DNA of 25,915 bases from NCBI GenBank assembly GCA_015039465.1, contig MU130073.1:610277-636191 (forward strand), read 5' to 3'. This stretch comes from Phlegmacium glaucopus. Its lineage: Eukaryota; Basidiomycota; Agaricomycetes; Agaricales; Cortinariaceae. Below the pieces are notes generated by a model. The model saw nothing but the letters and a program-made list of their open reading frames with translations. It made no database searches and was not told the origin of the DNA. The translations under genes were made by a program, and so were the position numbers. Position 1 is the first letter of the stretch. Each line of letters opens with the position of its first letter. This document shows, piece after piece, positions 1 to 25,915 of this stretch.

Positions 1-148
1 GGAGGAGAACAAGTAGGAGATTCAGTGACTCCAGAAGGTAGAACAAGGCAAGAGAAGGTCAGGGTTTTAGTCCTGTGATATCCTCGAACACGTCGTAAGT
101 CGTGTAATACCTTACTGCGGTTTCAAAAGGGAAAGGCATTTGAATTGT

Positions 149-905
149 TACCGGAACTAAGGGTAGGTGATGTTAGTGCCACAATGAGTCTGCACTTTGG
201 AACCGTCCTTTGAATTGTCATATAAGTTTGAAGAGTTGGGTGAGGAAGATTCGATTGAGTAAGCTTTTCAAGGTTTTTAGTTAATGGTTATGTTCTTTTA
301 TACAGGGTTCTTGTGTGGGGGTCCGTCTGAGGACATGGGCTACATCAGCTTGGTTCCGATCAGTATAACTACTTGGAACCTCATGATGCCTGTTACAACT
401 CAGAGGAAGATAAGGAAAGTTAGTTGAGCAAAGGCGAAACTTAAGGGAGCCCTTTAGAAGTCGGTTCAGGTTAAGCCGACCGTCTGAATCTCTCGGGCTT
501 GGGAAGTGTCCATTCCTAGGATTCTTTGACTTTCGAAAAGAAAAGGTCACATCCGAGTTAAAGGCCTCGAGAAGGTTGTGTAAGACTCTGCTTGAGGTTC
601 GCTCTTTACGAACGAGACTGGATCGAGGTCTTGCACCGAGTCCTTCCCATTTCTTGGCCCTTAAATACCTGAGTGGTTGCGTTGGAGACAGGACCGAAGT
701 TCTTCCTCCCTGGATAATGACCTGTTCGTGGTTAGGTTGAAGTCGGGAAAGTTGTTTAGACGACTACATCTTGTGTTTGAGTGTTTAGAGGTTTACTTCA
801 CTGCCGGTTTCTTCAGCGGTTAATGACTCAGGTCAAGTTGCGGACTCGTTCAGTTGACATGTACCCCGTTCGTTGTAGAATCCATACTCCATCGTATTTC
901 CAAAT
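149..905. pseudogene. Ty3/Gypsy-like gag relic, readable only in the uncomplemented mirror
   Basis: Taking the complement of this stretch in increasing coordinate order gives a capsid-type gag reading frame around 497-570. It includes REPEPFTGKDPKKLKAF followed by LFQCRLNF, which resembles the start of the conserved gag domain of Ty3/Gypsy elements, and later a short stretch EPGIYG near 640-670. The frame has stops and frame changes between these pieces, so it is a decayed copy. Part of it (complement of about 700-905) is homologous to 2531-2690, which lies in normal orientation. The LTR end at complement 144-148 sits just before it, as expected for LTR then gag. Family assignment rests on motif recognition only. 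Confidence 0.6.
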
Positions 906-961
906 GGACAGTTACAACTCGGGTTGTTTATACCTCTCGTCAAGACACGGGTCACCTGACG

Positions 962-1376
962 ATATTTAGTAACAAACACAATCATATATTGTGGTTGGTC
1001 TCTCGTTACCTGGTCAGAAATCCAGTTTCCTGAGAGACAATAAGTAAATCCCTTCCGAATCGCAATCTGAACATTGTGTGTCTCCATCCTCCATTCTCAT
1101 CTCCACTACTCCTACTCCTACTTACAGAACTTTCCACTGACCCCACTCTCTCATATCTCTTCTCCTACTCACTCGTTCTCAGAAGTCATTCTGATATCGT
1201 CATCTGTTATCCCTATCTAACTGTCATTTCCCGTCTTTTTTACTTGAATCTCTCCTTCCTTAAGTGACCTTAAGGTGACTCTACTACTACCAATTCCTGA
1301 TTCTTGGCTTGACCTCCCTTGACTCCCCTTGATGGATAGGACCATGTTTTCTCGGCATAAATATGGGATTCCTACT
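962..1376. repeat. Repeat family B terminal part (copy B0), inside the reversed block
   Basis: Reading 1376 down to 962 gives the TATA-box region of family B (GGGTATAAATAC) through to its TTTATA end. After restoration it is an exact inverted copy of 2743-3157, and the identity continues 56 bp past the B end into flanking gag sequence (906-961). The copy is cut by the window edge, so its full length is unknown. Confidence 0.85.
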
Positions 1377-1757
1377 AAACTAAGATGATATTTGAACTGA
1401 GGAAAAACATACAAGTTTGAGTACTTAAATATAAAAGGAATTGCAACTGAAATATAGAATATAAATATAAGTGCTGTGTTCTGCCCCCGGAAAAGGTCCT
1501 GCATTCTTGGGTGAATAATCCATGGCTGGTGTGCTGACTGATAGTGGGAAAGTGATGACAAAGGAATAGTTGTTATGATGAAGGTGTGGTAATGGGTTTG
1601 GAGTATGTCGGAAGAGTTGGAATGATATGGAGAAGTCTCGGAGTCGGATGTAGGAGGAGTAGAGTTGGAGACAAGGGAAAGTACTGGAACAGAGTATGGA
1701 CTACCAGAAACAACTCCAACGGAGTTGGACCAGAGTAACATATGACAGAATGTAACA
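1377..1757 (-). repeat. LTR family A, 5' two thirds of a minus-strand copy (completed by reversed bases 148-1)
   Basis: The reverse complement starts TGTTACATTCTGTCATATG at 1757 and runs collinear with the LTRs at 8076 and 11105. It stops abruptly at 1377, and its continuation is found only if bases 1-148 are read backwards. The combined length is 529 bp, slightly shorter than the 572-579 bp of the two complete copies. The open frames across it are chance frames in LTR sequence; the same pseudo-peptide appears in every copy. Confidence 0.85.
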
Positions 1758-2489: not shown

Positions 2490-2742
2490 AAGGGTAAAGT
2501 ACTGGGAATTAGTCACAGGCTACCTTTTGTTCAAGAAGGAGGGACCTATTACTGGGGTACATCCTATTTTTTCCCCTCTCTACATCTGTAATTCAAATGA
2601 TGTTATGGTAAAGAAGTTGCCTACTGAGAGTTGGCCTGAGCAAGTCAACCCATGGGTTAAGCAACATCTTAATGAGGAGCATAAACCCTGTCAATGTTGA
2701 GCCCAACAAATATGGAGAGCAGTTCTGTGCCCAGTGGACTGC
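2490..2742 (+). pseudogene. Fragment of the gag-bearing LTR element, decayed
   Basis: This piece is homologous to the complement of about 640-961. It shares CAAGAAGGAGGGACCTATTA, then GAGCAAGTCAAC, then GCAACATCTTA in the same order, with indels between. It is non-coding as it stands because of stops and frame changes. From 2687 the identity with the mirrored copy becomes perfect and continues into repeat B. Confidence 0.6.
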
Positions 2743-4170
2743 TATAAATCATTGTTTGTGTTAGTATATAACACCAACCAGAGAGCAATGGACCAGTCTT
2801 TAGGTCAAAGGACTCTCTGTTATTCATTTAGGGAAGGCTTAGCGTTAGACTTGTAACACACAGAGGTAGGAGGTAAGAGTAGAGGTGATGAGGATGAGGA
2901 TGAATGTCTTGAAAGGTGACTGGGGTGAGAGAGTATAGAGAAGAGGATGAGTGAGCAAGAGTCTTCAGTAAGACTATAGCAGTAGACAATAGGGATAGAT
3001 TGACAGTAAAGGGCAGAAAAAATGAACTTAGAGAGGAAGGAATTCACTGGAATTCCACTGAGATGATGATGGTTAAGGACTAAGAACCGAACTGGAGGGA
3101 ACTGAGGGGAACTACCTATCCTGGTACAAAAGAGCCGTATTTATACCCTAAGGATGAGGCTATGTAGAACAATAAAAAGAAACAAATACACACTGTCAAA
3201 GGAAGAAAGATGAAGAGACAACAGCTGCAAGAAGAAAAGAACTGTTACGGCGACTATAAGCTTGCACTCGCGTTCGGTGCTGGGCCGATAGACCAAATAA
3301 CTAGGGACTTAAATACAACTGCAATCATGTTCAACAAGTTAAGACTGAGGGCGACAAGTTCTGAGCAAGCTGTGTAGATTAAGACCATAAGAGTACAAAG
3401 GTCTAAACTAGGGATCATGGCTATGGGTATGGCTCTTATATACTAAGGGGTCGAGTCAGAGATAAGGGAATGGTCCGTGCTGGGAATATGAGTCGGTACG
3501 AGTCAGAGATAGAGGGAACGGAAGCAATAGCTAAGTATAGTACATAGAAGGTTCAGGGCAAAGGGTAAGTAGGGAAAGGGGGTGGTGTAGGAAGGGAGCG
3601 ATGAAGGAAGATGTAATGTACAGTAGAGAAAAGGGGAGAAAAAGGAATGGGGGCCGTGCGCGTACCAGACGTTCATAACAAGAACAATGGAAAAGGAGGA
3701 AGAACAATAAAAAAATCTGTAAGATGTCAAAGTGTGTGAGAGAAAAGAAGAGAAGGCAGTGTGCACAGTCCAATAGAAAAAATATATTGACTCCATAGCT
3801 GTGGGGTTATGTCAAAAATGTGAAAGGTCCTGAGTCAACACTTGAAAGGTGCAGCCTTGTTCCTGAGAAAATACCACCTGCCCATGATCTCATGTCATGC
3901 AGCCTTGATAACACTTGACATACTGTGAGAATAATCCTCTGCTGCTGATTCATCTGCAACTCCTGCTTAGTTGTGATCCTTCTGGACTTCCTAAAATGTG
4001 ATAAAGATGGTGGGAAGGATCCAGGTACAATGTGAATGTTGGTTTTGGCAGTGAATGATAAGATAAATGGTAGATAAGTGAGGATAGGGGACTGAGTGAG
4101 ATCCAGGAGCAAGGTATGGCAAGGTAGATAGCTGAGGGGAAGACTTGTGGGTCCATAGCCACAACAATGA
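2743..4170 (-). repeat. Repeat family B, copy B1, 5'-truncated and split by a solo LTR
   Basis: The reverse complement matches the other B copies from TCATTGTTGTGGCTATGG (4170 downward) to the TTTATA end at 2743. About 385 bp of the family's 5' part, as present in B2, is missing. The TATA-box segment (GGGTATAAATAC-like) lies at about 3135-3150. A 438-bp LTR plus a 5-bp duplication interrupts the copy at 3238-3685. Removing that insertion leaves about 985 bp, close to the 1027 bp of the matching part of B2. The 3' flank (GCAG) differs from the CCGG seen at B2. Confidence 0.8.
3243..3680 (-). mobile_element. Solo LTR (438 bp) inserted in repeat B1, with 5-bp target duplication
   Basis: The segment begins TGTTACGG and ends CATAACA, with inverted TGTTA/TAACA termini. 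It is flanked by AGAAC at 3238-3242 and AGAAC at 3681-3685. Deleting the segment and one AGAAC restores the uninterrupted B sequence as read at about 9370-9385. A TATA-like stretch TATATAAGAG is on the minus strand, so the LTR probably points that way. It differs in sequence from LTR family A and is therefore a second LTR family. No internal domain remains, as expected after LTR-LTR recombination. Confidence 0.88.
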
Positions 4171-10526: not shown

Positions 10527-11105
10527 TGTTAAGTTTAAAACAAAGGAAAAATGTCGGAGTAACTCCGGACCGGACGGATCGGAACCGGAACAAGTAACAG
10601 AAAGGACTTTGGCCTCAGCGTATGTGCTGTGCCGCCCAGCTCCTACAATGTCCTGATTTTGGAACCAGAAGAGAATGGAAAGATGGAAGACCTCAGTGAC
10701 TTAGAGGACAAACAAGAGGAGGAAACTAAGTTGATATTTGAACTGAGGAAAACATACAAGTTTCGAGTACTTAAATAATAAAAGGAATAGCATCCGAAAT
10801 ATAAAAGATAAATATAAAGTGCTGCATTCTGCTCCTGGAAAGTCCTGCATTCTTGGGGTGAATAATCCAAAGCTGGTGTGCTGACTGATAGTGGGAAAGT
10901 GATGACAAAGAAATAGTTGTTATGGCAAAGGTGTGGTAATGGGTTTGGAGTATCATTGGAAGAGTCAGAATGATACAGAGAAGTCTTGGAGTTGGATGTA
11001 GGAGGAGTAGAACCAGAAACATGGGAAGGTACTGGAATGGAGTATGGACTACCGGAAACAACTCCGATGGAGTTGGACCGGAGTAACATATAACAGAATG
11101 TAACA
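10527..11105 (-). mobile_element. Intact solo LTR family A (579 bp) with 5-bp target duplication
   Basis: On the plus strand it starts TGTTAAGTTT at 10527 and ends ATGTAACA at 11105. AATGT is present at 10522-10526 and at 11106-11110. Orientation is minus relative to the copy at 8076. It is the best reference for the family and shows how the LTR reads across the point that corresponds to the 1376/1377 seam. The open frames inside are shared pseudo-peptides, not genes. Confidence 0.93.
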
Positions 11106-11414: not shown

Positions 11415-12914
11415 GAACCCATAAGCATTGTTATTGACCAAGGTGCAGAACCTGTATCTGCACCTTAACTATTTATACTAATGTACATGGTCTGTGCACT
11501 TGTATGTACATGTGTGTATAGTGATAAGAATTAGTCATGTAATACTAAACTACTAAGTGGATAGCTAACCGGTATCGTGCACCAATACTGATTGGTAGCA
11601 TGGGTAAAAAGCTTAAAAGTTGCCATCATGAAAATAAAGTGGACTTGGAATTCACTTGCCTGTTTTGGAAGCAGCCTTGAATCACATTCCTGGTCAACAA
11701 ATCATTCATTCAATGTTATCATCCTCATCACTCATCTTATTCACAATGTCTTTCACCATGCTATCTATCATCTACACTATTGACATGATCCTAGACATAT
11801 ACCATCCATTTATTCCTTGGCTAGCAATACAACAAAACAATCAATCCACTATTTGCATCAGTCATCGGCTTGTGTTTGATCGTATCTATGGCCCATCATT
11901 TCAAGAACAGCCCATTTATGGATGCATCAGCTACATCTCCCATTATGTAAAAGGCTTTGTCATTGTTGTTGTGGCTATGGACCCACAAGTCTTCCTCTCA
12001 GCTATCTACCTTGCCATACCTCACTCCTGGATCTCACTCAGTCCCCTATCCTCAATTATCTACCTCTTATCTTATCATTCACTGCCAGAACCAACATTCA
12101 TGTGGTATCTGGATCCTTCCCACCCTCTTTACGCTGTCATCTCTTCAGCTTTCTTCCTTTGACAGCACATACTTCTTTTTTTTATTATTGTTCTACATAG
12201 CCTCATCCTTAGGGTATAAATACTGCTCTTGTGTACCAGGATAGGTAATTCCCCTCAGTTTTCCTCAATCCACTTCTTAGTCCTCTACAGTCATCATCTC
12301 AGTGGACCTCTAAGTTCGCTTTTTTCAGCCTTTAACTATTACTGTCCCCTATTGTCTACTGCTATAGTCTTACTGAAGACTCTTTCTCACTCATCCTCTT
12401 CTCTATACTCTCTCACCTCAGTCACTTTTCTATTCATCTTCATCCTCATCCTCATCACCTCTATTCTTTCCCACTACCTCTGTGTGTTACAAGTCTAAGG
12501 CTAAGCCTTCCCTAAACAAATAACAGGGAGTCTTTTGACCTAAAGACTGGTCCACTACTCTCTGGTTGGTGGTATATATCAACACAAACAACAATCTATA
12601 CTAGGCTCATGACTAAGGTGTAATGACTAAGACTATGGATCTAGGTCCATGTTAGGGAATGAATGGAGGTATAGAACACTCCATTGAACATTACATTCAT
12701 GCTTCTTGGATAACCCCATAAACATTGTTATTGACCAAGGTGCAGAACCTATATCTGCACCTTAACTATTTATACTAAGATACATGGTCTGTGCACTATA
12801 TATGTACTTGTTTGTATAGTGATAAGAATCAGCTATGAGTAATACTAAACTACTAAGCGGATAGTTAACTGGCCTTGTGACTAAGGCATAATGACTAGGA
12901 CTACAGATCTAGGT
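11415..12914. repeat. Tandem duplication D-E; first unit carries repeat B3, second is the empty site
   Basis: Unit 1 is D1 (11415-11572) plus E1 (from 12601) with B3 between them. Unit 2 is D2 (about 12710-12872) plus E2 (12873-12914). Shared blocks include TTGTTATTGACCAAGG, ATCTGCACCTTAACTATTTA and GATAAGAAT in D, and GACTAAGG..TAATGACTA in E. The D2/E2 junction reads TTAACTGGCCTTGTGACTAAGG and represents the pre-insertion site of B3. Confidence 0.85.
11573..12600 (+). mobile_element. Repeat family B, copy B3 (1028 bp), internally deleted
   Basis: B3 starts TATCGTGCACCAATACTG and ends CAACAATCTATA. It is flanked by CCGG (11569-11572) and CTAG (12601-12604). The paralogous empty site at 12869-12872 has a single CTGG, so the flanks are a decayed 4-bp duplication. 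Compared with B2 it lacks about 330 bp (equivalent of 9055-9380). Many CpG sites of B2 are TpG or CpA here. The frame 11656-12162 is the counterpart of the B2 frame. Confidence 0.88.
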
Positions 12915-12918
12915 ATGG

Positions 12919-13316
12919 GAGATGGGTAAGAGTAGGCGCTAAGGTAGTAAGCTCATGATGGGACATCACATAGTGACAGAGGGTGTCGGGTAGTGCCATA
13001 GGCCTAGGCAATAACATAGGGTTGTTGTATGATGGGTGAGATTGAGGTGACAGGTGGTGTTATGCGTAAACTGGGAGGCATAGGGTAGGATTAAAGGGAG
13101 ATCCCCTGACAGTCCAGGAGACAGGTAAGGGTAGACACTAGGGTAGTAAGCTTGTGATGGGACATCACATGGTGACGGAGGGTGTTGGGTGTTGGGTAGT
13201 GCCATAGGGGTCTAGGCAGTAGTGTAGGGTGACTGTACAATGGGTGAGATCAATAGATGGGTGGTGCTATGCATAAGACTGGGAAGCATAGGGTAGGACC
13301 AAAGGGAGGTCCCCTG
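12919..13316. repeat. 199-bp tandem duplication
   Basis: Two units start at 12919 (GAGATGGGTAAGAGTAGGCG) and 13118 (GAGACAGGTAAGGGTAGACA). They share blocks such as TGATGGGACATCACAT, GGTAGTGCCATAGG, GCATAGGGTAGGA and TCCCCTGACA in order. The second unit has a small extra GGGTGTT duplication. No coding sequence is supported. Confidence 0.8.
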
Positions 13317-14328: not shown

Positions 14329-17300
14329 CTACCAAAGGGTTTGATATGCATACATATTTAGCCAATTATTAATGAAGAAGACCGAGGCCTCATCCAAGAC
14401 ATTACTAGCTTCCCACTTGCTCTCCCGAGCTAAGGCGACAGTATCTGAATCATCTGAAAATTTTGGAAAAAGCATACAACTTTGGCGAATGTTGGACAAA
14501 GGGATAACGGCTCCAATAGCCTTTCCATCTGCACCTAAGGCCTTCTTAATAATGTACATACCATGGGATTTATCAGGCTGGGATTGAAGAGGTGAATACC
14601 ATTCAATATAGGCTAGCGGTTGTTTAGGCCATTGTGCAGGCGCTGGTGTAGGGCCAATTCCAAAGTCAATGATGTCAGGAAGTTGAAAAATTACTTTAAT
14701 GCGTGCGATTCGGGTGCCTACATTAAATTAGCCTTTGAAACAATTTCAAAAATGTTGTTAGCCTACCAGTAAGTCCTGTAGATTCTGCAGCACTACTATT
14801 CAGAACAACAACAGTGTCAAATCTACCATTTGGAAGTCTTTTGGATATTGGAATTGCCTTGACTAGGTCATTTTCCTCAGAATCATCTTGCAATGCCTCT
14901 GGATGAAATTTAAACATATTGAAGACATCAAGGTGACGAAAAGGAAGAGAGAACTGGCTAGCTCGTCGCATGGAGGTTGGTGATGAGAGAAAACTGTTCA
15001 AGAATTCCTTTAGGTAACGCGAAAGTCCAGGGGCCTTGTGATTAGATTCAATGGTAGCGATAAGTTTTTTAGGATGGTTGGGTGTTTTGGCGATTGAGAT
15101 GGGGGGCCTTTTTGTCAATAAAATGGTTTCCTTTGTTGATTTCAAAGGCATAGAGTATTCACGAGTAGTTAAAATGTTGTCAAATATGTCAACCTTTTCT
15201 TGTCGAGAAAGCCAGCGAATCATTTGAGGAAACTCATCACGTTGATTTGATGCCCTCCAACCATTCTTTGCAAAGTCAATATGAAGCCGCTCAAACATCT
15301 CCGTATTGTAGTTGTCAGTCGTCCCAAAAAGTTCAATAGCCTCAATGTAGTGGAGAAGGGAGTGGAATTTTGGAATATTGAGGTTGTCTCGGACACCAGC
15401 ATTTATAAAGTAGATTTTATGCTTGTGAAAGTCATTGAGAGCGTCTTGAAGATATCCAAGAGTCACAGTATCATGAGTGGTATATTGGGCCAAGTAAATG
15501 AAGTCTAAAGCTGCCTTGATTGCTTGCAGACCAATTCTCGGAATTTTCCCAACAAGACAACCCAAGAGGATCTTCGCCATGTTCTTCCTCTCTGAACCAG
15601 AGATCTGTGATAAGGCAGAGATCCCATTTTTGAACTTTCGCAGACCATAACCAATGGGTAAAGCGCGTATTCTCCGATCAAGCTCAGCAGGCTTTAATAT
15701 AAGCTGACACCAACTAATAATGTGCTTAAATATGCCTTGGTAGAGTTGATGAAGGACATCTGGAGTAATGGCACGATGAATGTCACAGAGAGGAAAATCC
15801 TTCCAAAATGGGGAGTAAATGCTACCAGCAACGTCGCTTTCCATACAGGCCTTATGAAATTGGTTGTGACTTGAAAAAGCAGCTTTGGCATTGTCGATGA
15901 TTGTCTGAGTCCATTCCTGAGTTCGTGCGGGGCCTGCTTGTGCATTCTGAAGATCATTTGCTTTTGAACGGCACTTAGGACAGGTAGTGGACTTTGTGCA
16001 AGTGACCAAGCATTGCTCTGGGTAATCGGCCACATAGCAAGTAAGAATTGGATGAACCTGTCGCACATTTCCAAGACCATCTACCATATCAACACCCTGC
16101 TGACCCGCAGTCTTCAAGGGTTCCAGGATGACCCTCATTGACTCATGAAATATGCGTTGAACGCGAGATCGATGTTCAACATCTGACATCAAGGAACGGC
16201 GTTGTATTTTCTCTACTGAGAGGTACGCAATTAAGATACAACCATGTTGGGATGGCTTTCTCCGAATAGATTTTGGTAGGTTTCCAATGGTGAGATAAAC
16301 TGGATAGGCAGCCTTACTGCCTGAGAATTGAGTCAACTGCGTCTTATCTGTGGCAATGATCACTGGTGCTAAGGTTGCACCTCTTGGAAGGTGGCTCTTA
16401 ATAACGACAGTCATGTAAGAGAAATTGATGTGGATCTAGAAAAAAGATGCTTACTTGGAGAACCGTCCACCATTTTCCTGTCCACATCTCAGAATAAATG
16501 CACTTTTGCCATGAAACATCAGAATAAACTTTTTTTGGTGCAAAGACCAGATCCCTTGCATGGCCTGGGTTCTTCCAAAGGCTCTTGATAGCCTCAAGAG
16601 GATCTCGATAACGAATCGTGTACTTGTCCTCAGGTTGATCTCTAAAGACCAGTTGACGTGTCATCCACTCTCCTGCTCGGTCAGGAATACTATCAATCTT
16701 CTGATACAGTGATCGCATATTATGATATGATAAACCCAGTCTTTCCTTGAGCTAAAACATATTTTTTCGTATCAGAGCTCCTTTACCAAGAATTTGAGGG
16801 AACATACCCCAGGAATGCTGAGCAACCGATCAAAGGCATTGTTTCCTGGACCATCCCTAATAGCCCACCTAGAGACTCTCCAATCCAGCTCAGAAGTAAA
16901 GGGAAAAAACCGATTATCGTCCAGTCCAAGGTCCATTGCAGTATCTTGATCTTGATCTAATGAATGGACTTTGCGATAGATGAGCCCGGCTGAAGAGTCC
17001 TCATCAACAATCCGGTTGTCATCTTCATCATCAAGCGCACGATGTATCATCCTTTCAGCAGTAGATGGTCCCGGCCCTGCTTCTCCTTCGTTGAGAGGTT
17101 GGATTGGGATTGCGGGAATGAAATGGAATGAGTCAGTGACGCTTTCCAGACCTGAAAGATCAAAGTCTTCATCTTCCAGGTCTTCACAAAAATCATCAGG
17201 GGTGGTAGGGTTGGTGAAAGAACAAGATGCGGAGTCAGAGGAAGGTGCTGGAGCTGAGGATGAACTTGAAGACGATGTTGGGGCAGTTGGGAGATCACCC

Positions 17301-19850: not shown

Positions 19851-20130
19851 CGAGACCAAAAACCCAGAAGACCAGCAGTATAACTGGAAACACATGCTTA
19901 GCGATACAATGGAAATTGCAACTAGCAGGGACAACTTACCTCGAGAGTTGGGGAAACAAAGGTATCAAGACCGGAATGCAGAAAGGGAGATCGCGATTGT
20001 GATGTGTGGTCGTTTGGTTACTCGATTATCAGTTTTCAGGTTCTTCCCAAAATCCTTGTTTTCGTTCACAAGGATGGGATTTAGTAGTTCTTCTAGCCCC
20101 ACATCGAGAAGTAGACCGTAGTACTGCGTG

Positions 20131-22480
20131 TCAAGTTTCTTCTTCTCTTTCAGGTTGTTGGGCTCGTCTAACTGCATCCTCCAGCGGTACAGTTGATGAC
20201 CGTCCAAATGACTTCTTTGTGAGATTTGGTAGATATGTCCGCACGTGGATATCACTGCGTTCCTGGACACGAACACCGTAGATACAATGTATTGTAGCGC
20301 GGGGTTGATCGACAGACCAATTGAGAGCAAGAAGACACACGGGATAGTTTTGAAGTCGCATCTCGAAGAGATTGTCGGTGTTGCTTGAGGTGGTTATTCC
20401 TATCGTACAAGGTAGATAAGAGGAATGTAAAAAAAGAAGAGATCAAAAGCATTACTTGTCTGCAATCACGATATCGTCTTGTGCAAGAAGTCGACTACTT
20501 TGGTGTTGCGGGTTTTTTGGCATGGACATCGTCACTTTGAGTATGACTGAATCCAGAATGAGCTAGAACTAACGAAACAGAGGTTTTGTATGTCTTTGGG
20601 ACTTGCACGTATGTGTTCATTGTTCAACAAGTACAAGTTCAAGTTCTACTGGAGATACCGTAGTGGAAAGGGATTAGGCTGAAGAGCGGGCAACCACAGT
20701 ATCGAGGTTGCGGAGTTTGGAAGCACCATTCTGAATCACTCTGTATTGCTGAAGATCCAGCAAACACACGCTCGTTCGAGATCATGGAATCAAGAGTCCA
20801 TCAGCACAATCTTGATAACAAACTACCCAGGAGTGTGATCTAAAAGAACTCAGTAATGACACAGGCGAATATATTGAAGAAAGGAAACATACCTTCGATC
20901 CTCCTCAAATTGTTGATCCCCACACATTGGAGTCCACGATGTCAGGAGAGACAGACATTGATTTTCACTCCTTTTCCGGTCGTCGGGTGCGCAGGATAGA
21001 TGCGAGTTTGGATCCAGCAGTATAATTAGATTGGATTCTACACCCAGAGGTGCAGACGAAGACATAGACTCCAGGTTGCCAGGTAACGCTGAAGGAGCAG
21101 GAGGTGGAGCATTGCTAGAAACCGCGAGGTCGAGGTGGTGTGGTTAGACGATTTCCAGGTTAGATGATTTCCACACTGTGGACATTTATGAACGTCGTTG
21201 AAGGGATCATGACAATAGGCCTTCTGTTTGGGCACTTTAATCGGTTTTGACGGCGGCGGCGGCGGCGGTGGTAGAAGAGACTTCGGTCCTTCTGACATTG
21301 ACATTGACGATGCTGAGTTATCTTTGGCCGTAGAAATGATCGTCCCAGGCCTTAGATTTCTCAAGAATGTTGAGGATTTTTGGGGTTCGGATATCGGCCG
21401 TGCTACCACGACCACATTGAGAGACGGCTTGTGCTCTGTACGACGACGTTTGGCGTGCATGATATCCGATGTCTGGAATTGAGAGAAGGGAGGAGTAGAT
21501 CTGTCGGATCGTCTGTAGCCACAGGCTCTCTAACAGGAGGAATAGAAGGCAACGCTAATTTGTTAAAGGCATGTTACCTCCCCTTCAGTGAAATACGCCC
21601 TTGGAGCAGCTCCCAGCTTCAGGGTTTCCAAGTTTGCAACGCGTCTACCGCCCTTAATATTCTCTCCTGACACCTGTTTATCGTCCTTTGACGTCTCTTG
21701 AGCTTCGAAAAGATCTTGGATAGATAATCCAGCCTGTCGAATAGTGAGAGAGTATAGGGCAGCGTCCGTAAAGGTATTAGATTGGCTTGTAGAACGTGAA
21801 TGACTGCAGCAGAATGAGAATGAGAATGAGACAAAGACCCAGGAAAAGATGATGTTGATAATGATAATTGAGTTCAAGAATTTTGCTTTGCTATCGATGA
21901 TGCAGGTGCTTTTCTGTCTTGTTGTTGTTGTTGATGATGCGGTGAAGATGGTGGAGAAAATTTTATTGGTTTTACAGGCGATGATGATGATGGAGAAGAT
22001 CGGTTTTCAAGGCCGGCAGGTTGGAAAGCATCTACTTGCCATGAACGGGCAAGAGATCGCCCAATCGCTTCATCTGAAAGAGGGGCATGTTGTGAATGTG
22101 AAATAGTGTTGCCACCCTTGTTGATCACTATAGGCTGTGACCCATGACGCTGATGTCGACTAGACGGCGGTGACTGGCTCTCCACAGCAGCAACAGTGAC
22201 ATTAACCGCTTGCCGTCGTTCTAGCTCAGCAGCAGCCGTTTCTTTGGAGAGTCGCAAGGCCTTAGCCACATTGAAAGCCTCAAGGGCGTCTCTCTGTGCC
22301 AAGATGAAGGCATTCTGATCGATTGTCCTCCAACAAGGCAGCATTGAAATTCTCTGCTTCTTCGTCTACAACGAATTCGTGGAGACTGATGTTGTCTGTC
22401 GCTGGGTTGGATGGAGTATTGAGGATGCTGGTGTAGATCTGAGAGAACCTAGGCATCGTGTTGACGGTTGTTAGAGGCAT
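20131..22480 (-). pseudogene. Broken multi-exon gene with zinc-ribbon-like CxxC motif, family not recognised
   Basis: Minus-strand coding blocks run in order. The first is MPLTTVNTMPRFSQIYTSIL from 22480, acidic to about 22326. A frame change at about 22318-22330 leads to LAQRDALEAFNVAKALRLSK and a Q/P/S-rich tail (to 21874). Next is SNTFTDAALYSLTIRQAG to AYFTEGE (ends 21578), a 105-bp intron (21473-21577), then TSDIMHAKRRRTEHKPSL with a polyproline run and VHKCPQCGNHLTW (about 21170). After another frame change comes APPPAPSALPGNLESM to the donor at 20892, then a 53-bp intron. Later blocks to about 20131 have further stops. The two introns are well formed, so this was once a gene. Two or more frameshifts without room for introns argue that it is now dead. 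Function unknown; the CxxC cluster suggests zinc binding. Confidence 0.6.
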
Positions 22481-23977: not shown

Positions 23978-24002
23978 AAAAAAAAAAAAAAAAAAAAAAA
24001 AA
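23978..24002 (+). repeat. 25-base A tract
   Basis: An uninterrupted run of A separates the TCC/GGA-rich palindromic repeat from the purine-rich 33-bp repeat. It could be the 3' tail of a retroposed copy on the plus strand or simple slippage. I see no flanking target duplication that decides this. Confidence 0.8.
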
Positions 24003-25701: not shown

Positions 25702-25915
25702 CAGACCTGGCGCGGTGCCTTGGAGCCCGTCTTTCTCAACTTTATTTCTTACTTTACTTCACCTCGGTTACTGGCTTCGTACACTACTAGTTACTCTGGT
25801 ACCTTTCCTTCGAACTTACTTTGTATAAGGACGTTTACTGATTTTCGCGCTTCAACTTTATCTTTGTTACCCTTTGCGTTTTAACTTACTCCTACTCTTT
25901 ATAGTATATCATCAC
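25702..25915. other. Window tail with atypical word composition
   Basis: This stretch is rich in TACT / ACTT words and nearly lacks TCAT, the opposite of the preceding 700 bases. No gene or repeat match is visible in the orientation given. Confidence 0.4.

Follow-up and report, generated by a model that had tools for sequence, protein, structure and literature searches.

String-reversed blocks beside assembly breaks in the Phlegmacium glaucopus genome: a probable product of gap patching

Mirror repeats of the H-DNA type are short homopurine tracts whose two halves lie side by side. Among assembly tools, the gap patcher PBJelly uses long reads to extend the flanks of assembly gaps, keeps N in gaps that are merely reduced, and terms a gap "overfilled" when its two extensions are longer than the predicted size without overlapping (excerpts of English et al. 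2012, PMC3504050). According to a portion of PMC6240028, one PBJelly utility takes 25 as its default minimum gap, and JGI hybrid fungal assemblies in general are described in part of PMC7550596 as combining ALLPATHS-LG with PBJelly. In the available excerpts of the literature on string-reversed assembly sequence and on gap fillers, no report of string-reversed patches was found.

The window analysed here is a stretch of 25,915 bases from the basidiomycete Phlegmacium glaucopus, located at positions 610277–636191 of scaffold C41 in an assembly of 60,534,613 bases and 259 scaffolds. Its first 1376 bases, referred to below as the head, run backwards, almost certainly through an assembly error and not through biology, and the maker of the error is likely to have been a gap-patching program. 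In full, we consider it highly probable that positions 1–1376 were reversed in place where they border an assembly gap, most likely by a long-read gap patcher that wrote the extension of a contig end in the wrong base order. An initial annotation of the window had already regarded a processing or assembly error as the simplest reading, and this is borne out: the terminal block is reversed in place and all 39 of the other places with mirrored sequence lie by assembly breaks. What is added here is the genome-wide scale of the error, its confinement to breaks and a signature of 25-A runs on one strand. The extraordinary claim of a parallel-strand copy is removed, and the 60.5 Mb genome is left carrying a systematic assembly defect.

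Base order in the head and at its seam

Searched by BLAST as given, the head matches only itself within the window. When its far end is complemented but not reversed, positions 906–1376 become identical to 2687–3157 at all 471 bases with a constant offset of 1781, exactly as the initial annotation had stated. The string-reversed head, aligned to the window as had been proposed there, gives six BLAST matches with identities of 74–94.5%. The reported resemblance of the start of the head to an LTR is likewise recovered: string-reversed 1–210 aligns with 2169–1969 at 85% and 1–125 with 10606–10722 at 83%. The LTR-like repeat that follows the head (Table 1) has 1132 first-look places genome-wide versus 60 for its string-reversed form, 40 being scored in each search.

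Table 1. Coordinates, within the window, of the features discussed
Feature	Position	Strand	Remark
String-reversed block, in place	1..1376	.	Base 1 adjoins the upstream N run
Far end of the block	906..1376	.	Exact inverted repeat with 2687–3157 once un-reversed
Seam, reversed block to normal sequence	1376..1377	.	True left neighbour of base 1377 is base 1
LTR-like repeat, normal order	1377..1757	+	
Normal partner of 906–1376	2687..3157	+	471/471 identity
Independent normal copy	10606..11105	+	Unbroken across the seam at 10722/10723
Run of exactly 25 A, probable 25-N filler	23978..24002	+	One of 157 on the scaffold + strand

The central claim of the initial annotation, that the head is string-reversed without complementation, is supported by the identity of the complemented 906–1376 with 2687–3157 and, independently of homology, by base order. 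The observed/expected ratios of CpG and GpC are 0.46 and 0.86 in 1377–25915; those of the head are 0.68 and 0.38 as given, and 0.38 and 0.68 once it is string-reversed. Models of base order (orders 2–5) from whose training the head was excluded score it at −22 to −93, and among 286 tiles of 1376 bases the head scores lowest, with zero negative tiles starting at or beyond 1377. A two-state base-order model, retrained on its own calls, marks 1–1383 as mirrored and makes no other call in the window. With the models trained without the head, a few 1-kb bins outside it are near zero or negative: 12000–13000 is at about zero, and 20000–21000 ranges from −0.3 to −47.8 depending on the order and lies at about zero with a larger training set. 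Positions 20000–21000 carry the weakest normal-versus-reversed score outside the head, and the two-state model makes no mirrored call there.

The open frames of the window were also considered. Positions 14723–16414 (− strand) hold a 563-aa frame of a Plavaka-type transposase (PF18759 in relatives), which is intact as given, and this part of the window is therefore in normal order. A database protein identical to this frame lies on a contig of 799,888 bases, while scaffold C41 measures 793,956, perhaps reflecting another assembly version. The transposase, together with pieces of RPB2, points to a mushroom-forming fungus and no further: the RPB2 pieces match Lyophyllum atratum at 94% and an unnamed fragment at 96% over 83%, and the row with the top score is a Puccinia entry (76% over 65%). 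The string-reversed head contains a 111-aa open frame which we take to look gag-like. The gag-like peptides proposed for the head did not find support in Pfam, where this frame has no gag match and, at E values up to 10, returns one unrelated family (0.2). No protein resembling the 160-aa frame of the head as given was found among 20 candidates.

The seam was examined by aligning string-reversed bases 200–1 and bases 1377–1576 separately to normal copies. In all eight copies that aligned on both sides (two in the window, at 10722/10723 and 1969/1968, two in L005 and one each in L002, L004, L006 and L007), the base corresponding to base 1 directly adjoins that corresponding to base 1377. Positions 1–1376 were therefore reversed in place, and the earlier observation that base 1 abuts base 1377 without gap or overlap when the head is read backwards, made from a single independent copy, extends to all eight.

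Upstream of window base 1, all 9977 of the 9977 bases examined are N, and downstream of base 25915 there is N throughout the 3809 bases examined. We take these flanking runs to be scaffold gaps, because reversed blocks end at N runs. The exact coincidence of the block end with window base 1 is what would be seen if the reversal were limited to this window, or to the copy that we analysed, and had come about by accident or as a planted test. Window base 1 is, however, also the edge of the scaffold N run, and the window start and the block end coincide because both are the edge of this one run. At least 39 other places have mirrored blocks by breaks, and 254 runs of A25–A27 lie on one strand (see below), which also speaks against this explanation, although the whole analysed copy could still differ from the public record; we regard it as very improbable. 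Insertion into this window alone is rejected on the strength of the same 39 or more other places.

Mirrored blocks elsewhere in the assembly

The head as given matches itself and at least 39 other distinct places (46 rows, with 40 of the 86 first-look candidates scored). The nearest break for these 39 places is an N run in 23 cases, a scaffold end in 3 and a run of A25–A28 in 13, mostly at a distance of at most 1 base and at a maximum of about 1 kb. For this assignment 35 sequences were examined and the other four places were located from lists of A runs, at 0–11 bases; L057 was counted as an N-run locus only after inspection of the sequence neighbouring it on the left. Among the 39 places there are no mirrored copies away from assembly breaks.

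A mirrored stretch was present by BLAST in all 35 sequences examined. Of 31 loci, 25 have a mirrored match that reaches to within 1 base of the break, and the other 6 have one that ends 154–1046 bases before it; in L059 and L060 the match lies 78 and 21 bases from the break. None of the seven normal-copy control loci has a mirrored stretch or a break, which, given that the controls are about 3.4 kb long and many mirrored loci are longer, is a modest control as far as breaks are concerned. Reversal in place was recognised in 20 of 27 loci (L013–L039), where the bases at the break edge and at the seam map at most 8 bases apart in the normal copy. The remaining 7 of the 27 are without a seam pair, and some of the other adjacent pairs in this test fall inside repeats and are coincidental. 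At L023 a single gap shows in-place reversal on both sides.

A real biological mirror duplication, arising by parallel-strand copying and perhaps propagated as a spreading mirrored element, would agree with a mirrored order that is truly present in the sequence and occurs many times. Against it, the mirrored blocks adjoin assembly breaks at all 39 places, they are reversed in place and their seams are exact, and the reversal affects different elements. In a tree of 21 LTR-like rows the three mirrored rows are dispersed over three separate places (3 changes, too small a sample to tell whether they form one lineage). We know of no enzyme that makes a parallel-strand DNA copy. The association with breaks and the exact in-place seams lead us to reject a biological mirror copy, whose probability we put at next to nothing.

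The coding content of the blocks was compared in the two base orders. Six of the eight mirrored blocks examined have their longest open frame in the string-reversed order, the exceptions, with the longest frame as given, being L025 (part of which is normal, with a frame of 677 aa) and L031. In L035 (2153–6501) the reversed frame measures 605 aa versus 166 aa as given, and in L033 the longest frames are 306 aa reversed versus 130 aa as given. The first 358 aa of the reversed L035 frame match Pfam RVT_1 and two RNase H families with E values of 6e-29 to 2e-34, and the reversed L033 frame matches CxC6 (E 1.4e-12). Zero Pfam matches were obtained for four frames as given, of which the head supplied two, L033 one and L035 one. 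The two-state model overcalled L025, a partly normal sequence as its 677-aa frame indicates, and its mirrored calls at L026 1–216 and L036 1407–2267 are candidates only.

Some blocks overlap at their outer ends. In L028 the overlap of the two blocks is 160 bases at 97.5%, and in L031 it is 1278 bases at 97.7%, as would be expected of two noisy reads into one gap. A different relation is found in L035, where, after un-reversal, part of the patch is a near-exact inverted copy of the adjoining contig (1–2127 and 3433–5562, 99.3% over 2130 bases). Neither this inverted repeat nor that of 906–1376 and 2687–3157 in the window is accounted for by reversal alone; either reads that were mis-recruited or a genuine inverted repeat may be the source. 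An origin of the pair in the window from a fold-back long read, at least in its simple form, was rejected: such a read would double back at its turning point, whereas the partner begins 1310 bases inside the contig.

Runs of 25 A and the origin of the blocks

Runs of A were counted by exact length over the whole genome. On the scaffold + strand and in reverse, respectively, there are 157 and 1 runs of A25, 72 and 1 of A26, and 25 and 1 of A27, that is, 254 runs of A25–A27 on the scaffold + strand versus 3 on the other; the comparison lengths gave 2 and 3 (A20) and 0 and 1 (A24). A fixed run of 25 A with A flanking it by chance (at a rate of 0.23 taken from A26) predicts about 25 runs of A27, and 25 were observed. 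We read the A25–A27 runs as fillers because natural poly-A would not favour one scaffold strand, and on the simplest reading they would be fillers of 25 N turned to A after scaffold orientation. Seven mirrored loci among L013–L039 are without an N run or scaffold end, and each of them contains 25 or 26 consecutive A.

Ten evenly spaced A25 places (L043–L052) were also scored: 7 of their 20 one-kb flanks are negative, 3 of these at or below −10, and 21 of 21 one-kb bins of normal copies score above 10. Some of the A25 joints of the genome have mirrored flanks and many are not clearly mirrored. The flanks of the A25 run in the window (Table 1) score normal or near zero, and this run may be a false joint between two un-reversed pieces.

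Overfilled gaps receive 25 N from PBJelly, and extension of gap flanks with long reads in a PBJelly-like manner appears to fit the observations best. The blocks would then be contig-end extensions built from reads that reach into gaps, some of which would have received half of the reverse-complement operation, either the reversal or the complementing; it may be that the other half was lost only in extensions derived from reads of one strand. Where two extensions were longer than the predicted gap, a filler of 25 N would have been placed between them, and a later step would have turned short N runs into A. Reversal would also leave any true overlap of the two extensions facing away from the joint, so that they would look unmerged.

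The same artefact could have been produced if terminal blocks were reversed by a different step, such as short-read gap closing, scaffold post-processing or hand curation. The geometry suits every step in which bases are prepended outwards or half of the reverse complement is omitted, and a later conversion of N to A is required under any version. Blocks of kilobase size (1376 bases here), outer overlaps that differ by 2–3% and a single fixed filler length nevertheless resemble long-read extensions and overfilled gaps, and we think such a different step unlikely.

Whichever program was responsible, the reversed blocks disrupt repeats as well as genes, and they may be mistaken for orphan or novel DNA. 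Other assemblies could be screened cheaply by two signs, namely A runs of fixed length on a single strand and a flipped balance of CpG and GpC beside gaps. Tentatively, and we hold this as the less probable case, a widely used gap-patching workflow could have silently left kilobase string-reversed patches, flagged by one-strand runs of 25 A, in many public hybrid assemblies. If this were true, the defect would have gone unnoticed because DNA in reversed order finds no matches and is taken for new sequence.

Comparison with described systems

The blocks of P. glaucopus share with the products of PBJelly, as far as excerpts of its description go (PMC3504050), the extension of ends into gaps, the leftover N and unjoined extensions that exceed the predicted size. 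They differ in being string-reversed and in having fillers converted to A, features absent from those excerpts, and the use of PBJelly for this assembly is presumed from these likenesses. Overfilled gaps that inflate hybrid assemblies, as discussed in a portion of PMC9635638, resemble the present case in their unmerged extensions from both gap sides; there they are blamed on scaffolding errors, whereas here some extensions that truly overlap would look unmerged through reversal.

The LTR retrotransposons and KDZ/Plavaka-type transposons of basidiomycetes supply sequence of the blocks, as seen from the RVT_1, RNase H and CxC6 domains that appear after reversal, but the mirrored order does not stem from the elements themselves. 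H-DNA mirror repeats, finally, have in common with the blocks a mirror symmetry without complement, whereas the mirrored sequences described here are kilobase blocks of ordinary repeats and genes situated by assembly breaks.
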